NCBI RefSeq assembly: GCF_900217815.1
Contig: NZ_OBMT01000002.1
Coordinates: forward strand, 248,001-312,000
Direction: 5' to 3'
DNA: 64,000 nt
Source of the DNA: Rhodobacter maris
Lineage (GTDB): Bacteria; Pseudomonadota; Alphaproteobacteria; Rhodobacterales; Rhodobacteraceae
Numbering within the stretch: the first letter of the stretch is position 1; each line of letters starts with the position of its first letter. This document shows positions 20,459 through 43,370 of this stretch, piece after piece. Below the pieces are notes generated by a model. The model had not been told where the DNA came from and did no database searches. It saw only the letters and a program-made list of their open reading frames with translations. Made by a program: the position numbers and the translations under genes.

Positions 20459-21826
<1,368 letters not shown>

Positions 21827-25534: not shown

Positions 25535-25722
25535 GCTTGTCTCCTGTCGATTTGCCCCGGACTGTGGCGCTTTTGCCGCGGGCTGCAAGGGGCGATCCGG
25601 GGCTGGCGCAAGATTTGCGCGAAAATTGCACGCGCCAATGTGGAATTAATCCACTTTCGAGGCGAAATCAGGTCAGAATCCGTTATGCATTTTCCGCAAG
25701 GCAGCGTTGCTCCCGTCCGCCA

Positions 25723-25752
25723 TTGTGCAGATGCAGCATTTCCCCCATGTTA
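25723..25752 (+). promoter_or_regulatory. Sigma-32 (RpoH)-like promoter of DUF1127 gene and hairpin array
   Basis: TTGTGC (25723-25728), then a 14-base spacer, then CCCCATGTTA (25743-25752), close to the heat-shock -10 CCCCATNTA. In R. sphaeroides the homologous locus is transcribed by RpoHI/RpoHII, which fits. Confidence 0.6.
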
Positions 25753-25832
25753 GCCCCAACAGCGACGGTGAACCGCAGCGACAGCCACGGTATTCCGGCG
25801 CAGAAGAAACCAGCGAAGCGACGAAAGACTGA

Positions 25833-26039
25833 ATGATGGCTTTGGCAACCGACATCCGCAGCACCGACACGGGCTTTGCCCAGATCGTGGCAACGCTGCG
25901 CGAAGGGCTCGCGCGCCGCAAGGTCTACCGCCAGACTCTGGCGGAGTTGCGCTCGCTTTCCGATCGCGAATTGAGCGATCTCGGCATGCACCGCTCGATG
26001 CTCACCCGCATCGCGCTGGAGGCGGCCTACGGCAAATAA
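25833..26039 (+). CDS. DUF1127 small basic protein, CcaF1-like
   Basis: A 68-residue protein with a C-terminal DUF1127 helix-turn-helix-like segment (VYRQTLAELRSLSDRELSDLGMHRSMLTRIA, given here in part: LAELRSLSDRELSDLGM). Members are short, Arg-rich alphaproteobacterial proteins; in R. sphaeroides the copy upstream of the CcsR sRNAs (CcaF1) is an RNA-binding protein involved in sRNA maturation and turnover. Here too the gene is immediately followed by a run of CCUCC-loop hairpins and shares their promoter. ATG at 25833 or 25836; the ribosome site is weak. Confidence 0.9.
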   Translation: MMALATDIRSTDTGFAQIVATLREGLARRKVYRQTLAELRSLSDRELSDLGMHRSMLTRIALEAAYGK

Positions 26040-26041
26040 GA

Positions 26042-26379
26042 CTTCCTGAGGCCCCTCCTCCTCCCTGGGCCTCGGAGATCGGCGGCACTCTCTCTCCTCC
26101 TCCCTGAGAGTGCCGCCACCCCATACCGGCCCCGGTGCCGGACCCCGATCAGGCCCCCTCCTCCTCCCTGGGGCTTGTAAAGAAGGCGGCGGCCTCTTCC
26201 TCCTCCCTGAGGCCGCCGCTCCTTCGACCAGATACCGCGTTCGCCTCCTCCCTGAGCGCGGGAAAGGTGCTGCTTCTCCTTCCGGCGGCACAGACATACC
26301 AAGGCCCCCTCCTCCTCCCTGGGGCCGCGGTTCGAACGGCGGCGCCCCTCCTCCTCCCGGGCGCCGCCGTTTTCTTTTG
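26042..26379 (+). ncRNA. Array of seven anti-Shine-Dalgarno hairpins (CcsR/cuckoo RNAs) plus one degenerate copy
   Basis: Directly after the DUF1127 stop codon come hairpins whose stems differ but whose loops are almost the same. Arms: 26048-26054/26067-26073; 26081-26092/26106-26117; 26153-26157/26170-26174; 26186-26196/26209-26219; 26235-26242/26254-26261; 26303-26308/26321-26326; 26335-26347/26359-26371. Loops read CTCCTCCTCCCT, TCTCCTCCTCCCT, CTCCTCCTCCCT, TTCCTCCTCCCT, GCCTCCTCCCT, CTCCTCCTCCCT, CTCCTCCTCCC. A further hairpin at 26267-26273/26285-26291 has the degenerate loop TTCTCCTTCCG. Compensating stems around a constant loop show selection for hairpins. R. sphaeroides has four such units, processed from the DUF1127 mRNA under RpoH control and titrating target ribosome sites; function here is inferred from that. 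Confidence 0.9.
26335..26379 (+). terminator. Terminator formed by the last array hairpin
   Basis: AACGGCGGCGCCC/GGGCGCCGCCGTT, a perfect 13-bp stem, loop CTCCTCCTCCC, then TTCTTTT. The final unit is thus both an anti-SD hairpin and the transcript end. Confidence 0.9.
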
Positions 26380-26493
26380 CGACCTCGGCAAACCAGGGTG
26401 CACGGCCCCTTCCCCAAGCTATTTCGGGCCAAATGAAAGCCCCCGCTTGCAGTGCGGGGCCCGGCACGTCAGGAAGAGAAAAAGGGGATCGGG

Positions 26494-42999: not shown

Positions 43000-43140
43000 G
43001 TGTTCCTCTCTCTCGGGCCCGGCAACGCCGGACACAGCTGGAAAGGACAACGGGGAGAGGCGCAGGCGGCATCCAGCCACCTGGCCAGACGCGCACCCCG
43101 GCGTCCGGTTGCACCGCGGGCGCTTTCGCGCCCCACGGAT

Positions 43141-43332
43141 CACCGGCAGGTCTCCTGGCTCGCGGGTCTTCGCTTCACCGGCCTTCCCGGGGCCGCGCGG
43201 GCTCCAGTGGCATATCCGGTGTCGCTCGCCGCTGACAGTTGCGGGGGCAGCTGCGGATTCGGCGCCTGATGGCTACACCTCACCGCATTCCCTATTGCTT
43301 CGGCAGGGGGCTTTGCTCCGTGCCGAACCGAT
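43141..43332 (-). promoter_or_regulatory. Cobalamin (B12) riboswitch
   Basis: Read on the minus strand, the conserved pieces occur in order: GGGAATGCGGTGAGG, CTGCCCCCGCAACTGT, GCCACTGG, GGGAAGG, and the B12 box GAGCCAGGAGACCTGCC (43146-43162). The spacing is normal. Between the aptamer and nikK, CCGGACGCCGG and CCGGCGTTGCCGG can pair, offering an expression platform near the ribosome site. It should shut off nikKMLQO when adenosylcobalamin is plentiful. Confidence 0.93.
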
Positions 43333-43341
43333 GACGCGCCC

Positions 43342-43370
43342 ATATCGCGCCGTGGGATACGCCTTGTCAA
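43342..43370 (-). promoter_or_regulatory. Promoter of the riboswitch-nikKMLQO transcript
   Basis: A perfect TTGACA (43365-43370, minus strand), 17-base spacer and a weak CGATAT -10, about ten bases before the 5' end of the aptamer. Confidence 0.5.

Follow-up and report, generated by a model that had tools for sequence, protein, structure and literature searches.

A CcaF1-CcsR-type stress operon in Rhodobacter maris with four two-hairpin CcsR-like units and paired boxes in its upstream region

The stretch of Rhodobacter maris DNA analyzed here (64,000 nt; hereafter the window) carries a further copy of the known CcaF1-CcsR stress operon, in which a DUF1127 gene is followed by four two-hairpin CcsR-like units, the third of them decaying. 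We consider this locus, with a probability of roughly 85%, the Rhodobacter orthologue of the ccaF1-CcsR operon of R. sphaeroides, whose stress transcript would be processed to CcsR RNAs that block Shine-Dalgarno regions. The anatomy and orthology of the operon, the conservation of its base pairs and promoter region, and its association with a DUF1127 gene are observed features. The part of the operon that may be new is a pair of TGCA-N6-GCAT boxes located upstream of the gene.

The ccaF1-like DUF1127 gene (67-68 aa) is located at 25833..26039 of the forward strand and matches PF06568 with E = 1.1e-11. Its orthologues are found directly 5' of the arrays of relatives, which favor the second ATG, at 25836, as the start. 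The open reading frame ends at 26039 and the hairpin array begins a few bases later, as the initial annotation had noted. The neighboring genes are ordinary: a gene for an Mrp/NUBPL-type ATPase precedes the operon on the minus strand, and rlmJ follows it. Elsewhere in the window, a cobalamin riboswitch is found at 43128-43347 of the minus strand (116 bits).

Seven hairpins with nearly identical loops, one with a degraded loop, and a last one doubling as the terminator had been described from the letters alone, and all of them are present. Hairpins 1 to 4 occupy positions 26046-26075, 26081-26117, 26150-26177, and 26185-26220, respectively. Hairpin 5 (26235-26261) has a shortened motif, and hairpin 6 (26267-26291) carries the decayed loop TCTCCTTCC. 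Hairpin 7 spans 26303-26326, whereas hairpin 8 (26334-26372) combines a motif loop with a 14-bp stem, followed by TTTTCTTTT, and forms with its T-rich tract the intrinsic terminator (26334..26380, forward strand). The motif CCTCCTCCC, or a close form of it, is found in seven of the eight loops, with hairpin 6 as the exception. The stems had been called unrelated, but they are of two types, a short one close to GAGGCCC and a longer one close to GGCGGC, which recur in the order A-B-A-B. The other two exact CCTCCTCCCT sites of the genome have neither an array nor an adjoining DUF1127 gene.

The Rfam model of CcsR1 (RF02791) is 83 nt long and covers two hairpins. It matches the array three times at full length on the forward strand, with E values around 1e-11. 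In detail, unit 1 (hairpins 1 and 2; 26040..26121) scores 51.8 bits (E = 1.2e-11), unit 2 (hairpins 3 and 4; 26141..26224) 53.1 bits (E = 5e-12), and unit 4 (hairpins 7 and 8; 26293..26375) 50.8 bits (E = 2.4e-11). None of the three reaches the 65.3 bits set as gathering score. At the gathering threshold Rfam gives no match in the array, and CcsR1 is recognized by E value only. The decaying unit 3 (hairpins 5 and 6; 26235..26291, forward strand) has no RF02791 match, and its orthologues in R. aestuarii and in one further genome (G102) bear motif loops on both hairpins. The gathering score is exceeded in only 9 of 198 genomes of the family, and the cut-off is therefore strict for divergent orthologues. 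The model of ar14 (RF02344) also matches the array, below its own cut-off (E 4e-8 to 6e-7). The units are called CcsR-like, and the operon is placed by homology and synteny rather than by gathering score. Two hairpins per RNA, each with a CCUCCUCCC loop, are a feature of the CcsR sRNAs (RF02791), and a DUF1127 gene directly 5' of the array is one of the CcaF1-CcsR operon, or CIN1 locus; both are found here, the hairpins with alternating stem types. The assignment to the CcaF1-CcsR (cuckoo) family, which the initial annotation had proposed, holds for an operon that is already published (PMC10253847).

Similar arrays are widespread among the relatives. The covariance-model search that had been suggested as a check returned RF02791 matches in 17 of 18 genomes of the genus, with three to six per genome, and at E <= 0.001 in 163 of the 198 family genomes, nearly all of which represent different genera. 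The arrays read across the family contain 2-14 motifs and typically begin 17-33 nt past the stop codon of the DUF1127 gene. Among the family arrays examined with at least three motifs, all but one have a DUF1127 gene directly upstream.

The stems of unit 1 were aligned across 15 genomes. Standard pairs occupy 97.4% of the cells, both sides have changed in 10 of the 21 pairs, and the pairing, the double changes, and the covariation score were matched by none of 500 shuffles. When the partners were slid along the alignment, pairing fell to 35-48%. The loops are nearly invariant across the aligned relatives. Anti-Shine-Dalgarno loops that stay constant while their stems vary but remain paired are the pattern of the Cuckoo / alpha-r14 family. 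High pairing together with fixed loops favors structured RNAs and shows that the stems are constrained. Of the earlier view that the stems drift freely while the loop is fixed, the second half stands, including the redundancy of the loops, and the first does not, as the stems are held by compensatory changes. The opposite outcome, that is, stems that lose their pairing and loops that change freely, which had been named as grounds for abandoning the proposal, is not what the alignment contains.

Stress transcription, processing, and target pairing are likely to proceed as in the relatives. A stress promoter, of RpoH type by homology, would drive the operon, probably together with a second regulator at the paired boxes, and a single transcript would run from the CcaF1-like coding region through hairpin 8. 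In R. sphaeroides, ccaF1 is cotranscribed with CcsR1-4, and the transcript is processed by RNase E with the involvement of CcaF1 (PMC10253847); such processing to sRNAs under oxidative stress is characteristic of the CcaF1-CcsR operon. By analogy, the two proteins would together process the 3' UTR of the window to yield four CcsR RNAs of two hairpins each. The single-stranded CUCCUCCUCCC loop of each hairpin is then expected to block the translation of selected mRNAs by pairing with their GGGAGGAG-like Shine-Dalgarno sequences. The several copies would provide dose and redundancy, and with redundant copies unit 3 could decay; the three motifs of NfeR1, which has the same loops, are mutually redundant (PMC10746234).

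An alternative, which we regard as unlikely, is that the hairpins act mainly in cis, protecting or processing the 3' end of the DUF1127 mRNA, with the loop bound by CcaF1 or by some other RNA-binding protein. The presence of a DUF1127 gene ahead of nearly every array examined is in agreement with it, as is the finding that CcaF1 binds RNA and helps to process its own transcript (PMC10253847), and a fixed loop on drifting stems would also suit a protein-binding site. Nevertheless, the CcsR RNAs of R. sphaeroides act in trans on flhR, C1 metabolism, and pyruvate dehydrogenase, and the same motif in NfeR1 works through base pairing, which argues against a role mainly in cis.

Even less probable is the reading of the initial annotation, in which the operon has been expanded to seven single-hairpin units that, through their dose, serve as general decoys of ribosome sites or compete for them. 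The near-identical loops do contain CCUCCU, the anti-Shine-Dalgarno sequence of the 16S rRNA, and the number of motifs varies widely in the family. However, that count was one of hairpins and was compared with CcsR1-4, which are units; the array makes four units because RF02791 spans two hairpins and the stem types alternate. Moreover, congeners mostly have 8-10 motifs, so that the seven of the window are the fewest among the arrays read in the genus and no enlarged version of the operon is at hand. General decoy action finds no support either; the RNAs of the relatives have specific targets: NfeR1 represses particular mRNAs, blocking ntrB by pairing at the ribosome-binding site or translation initiation region (PMC10746234), and flhR mRNA is a target of CcsR1-4 (PMC8307010). 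Arrays of such RNAs should be counted in two-hairpin units, and the range of 2-14 motifs within one family allows the effects of CcsR copy number to be compared between species. An array of 14 motifs is found in genome G051, very probably R. sphaeroides 2.4.1 (it has a 71-aa protein of the size of CcaF1 and a CcsR1 match of 106 bits), where it makes up seven units of two hairpins, of which five are near-identical, while the literature names CcsR1-4.

A chance run or an artifact of GC-rich, low-complexity sequence can be practically dismissed: the motif is repetitive and pyrimidine-rich, but CTCCTCCTCCCT at one mismatch or less occurs seven times in the array and once elsewhere in the window against 0.35 expected, a count of eight that was reached by none of 100 shuffles, the RNA of 26040-26380 folds at -168.4 kcal/mol where shuffles reach -130.8 (z = -7.4), and compensatory changes are seen across species.

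The 5' region of the operon is conserved throughout the genus and in G051, including ATTGTGCA-NN-TGCAGCA and CCATGTT. The promoter-like sequence TTGTGC ... CCCCATGTTA noticed earlier is present and conserved in the genus; it forms the putative RpoH-type promoter TTGTGC ... CCCATGTTA (~25723..25753, forward strand), which is conserved, with no indel, across 15 Rhodobacter genomes as well as in G051. The ccaF1-CcsR operon of R. sphaeroides has an RpoHI/RpoHII promoter (PMC10253847), and the sequence of the promoter region of the window is conserved in the 5' region of G051, the probable R. sphaeroides genome. A sigma-54 promoter at TGGCAGCATTGC was dropped because its spacing is wrong.

Two boxes of the TGCA-N6-GCAT type are located in this region, both on the forward strand. 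Box 1 (TGCATTTTCCGCAA, one mismatch) lies at 25686..25699 and box 2 (TGCAGATGCAGCAT) at 25726..25739, overlapping the -35 element and spacer of the putative promoter. Among 47 upstream regions of the family, in which the G051 region is entered twice, 33 contain a perfect box, where mononucleotide shuffles predict 0.14, and 44 have two boxes that are spaced by 39-40 bp and have no more than one mismatch each. In the genome of the window there are only two double-box matches, one of them at the array operon. Across the family, those double-box matches of the form TGCAT(A/G)GC(A/G)GCATTG...ATTGTGCA that were read precede DUF1127 genes followed by arrays, and the other family-wide matches look like chance.

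Box 1 lies ~72 to 59 bp ahead of the transcription start expected from the -10 element. In the promoter of NfeR1, a TGCA-N6-GCAT site attributed to LsrB occupies the same position, -72 to -60 (PMC10746234). It is conceivable, though we hold it somewhat less probable than the contrary, that the paired boxes are bound by a regulator, perhaps of the LysR type, which has the CcaF1-CcsR operon under its control across the Rhodobacteraceae, in parallel to the control of the related sRNA NfeR1 by LsrB in rhizobia. The names LsrB and VtlR were not adopted for this putative regulator, because LsrB is stated to occur only in Rhizobiales (2025 paper, PMC11975290) and the published VtlR box, GCAT-N3-TG-N3-T, has no exact match to the double boxes. 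The family-wide double box is a candidate second input to a stress operon described so far as RpoH-controlled.

Candidate targets were listed by a simple pattern search of the genome for GGGAGGAG-N3..9-ATG. The loop complement GGGAGGAG is found 3-9 nt before an ATG at 29 sites, against two for the reversed control. Nine of the 29 genes encode components of transport systems, either periplasmic binding proteins or permeases, and others encode the RuBisCO large subunit, transketolase, acetyl-CoA synthetase, and the PHA regulator PhaR. Genes led by AAGGAGGT (11 sites, one 13-codon frame left unscanned) served as a control for strong Shine-Dalgarno sites, and none of these 11 gave a match to a transport family. 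The excess of transporters (9/29 vs. 0/11) is modest, with a one-sided Fisher value of ~0.04. As a lead rather than a proof, the transporter-rich candidates would fit the predicted target sets of NfeR1, which are also transporter-rich (PMC10746234). Within the window, the start of a TRAP-transporter binding-protein gene (DctP; 21554-21569, minus strand) is preceded by GGGAGGAG, the perfect complement of the loop, which makes this gene a candidate CcsR target.

The closest known system is CcaF1-CcsR1-4 of R. sphaeroides (Cereibacter), from the work of Billenkamp 2015 and Gruetzner 2021 as described in PMC10253847. The two operons share the DUF1127 gene immediately 5', the two-hairpin units, the CCUCCUCCC loops, the conserved promoter region, and a terminator at the end of the array. 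Compared with G051, the window has four units, one of them decaying, instead of seven, and its terminator hairpin bears a motif loop, while the terminator hairpin of G051 has a degenerate one (TTCTCC). In the Cuckoo RNA family, or CIN1 locus (Reinkensmeier and Giegerich 2015), short DUF1127 genes are associated with CcsR-like RNAs across the alphaproteobacteria; this association is common to both, and no difference was found as far as the family is described in PMC10253847. The rhizobial alpha-r14 RNA NfeR1 (RF02344; PMC10746234) similarly consists of several hairpins with identical CCUCCUCCC anti-Shine-Dalgarno loops on differing stems and has a TGCA-N6-GCAT box in its promoter region. In contrast to the window, NfeR1 consists of one sRNA with three hairpins and has a sigma-70 promoter of its own, whereas the RNAs of the window belong to the 3' UTR that follows a DUF1127 gene with an RpoH-like promoter.
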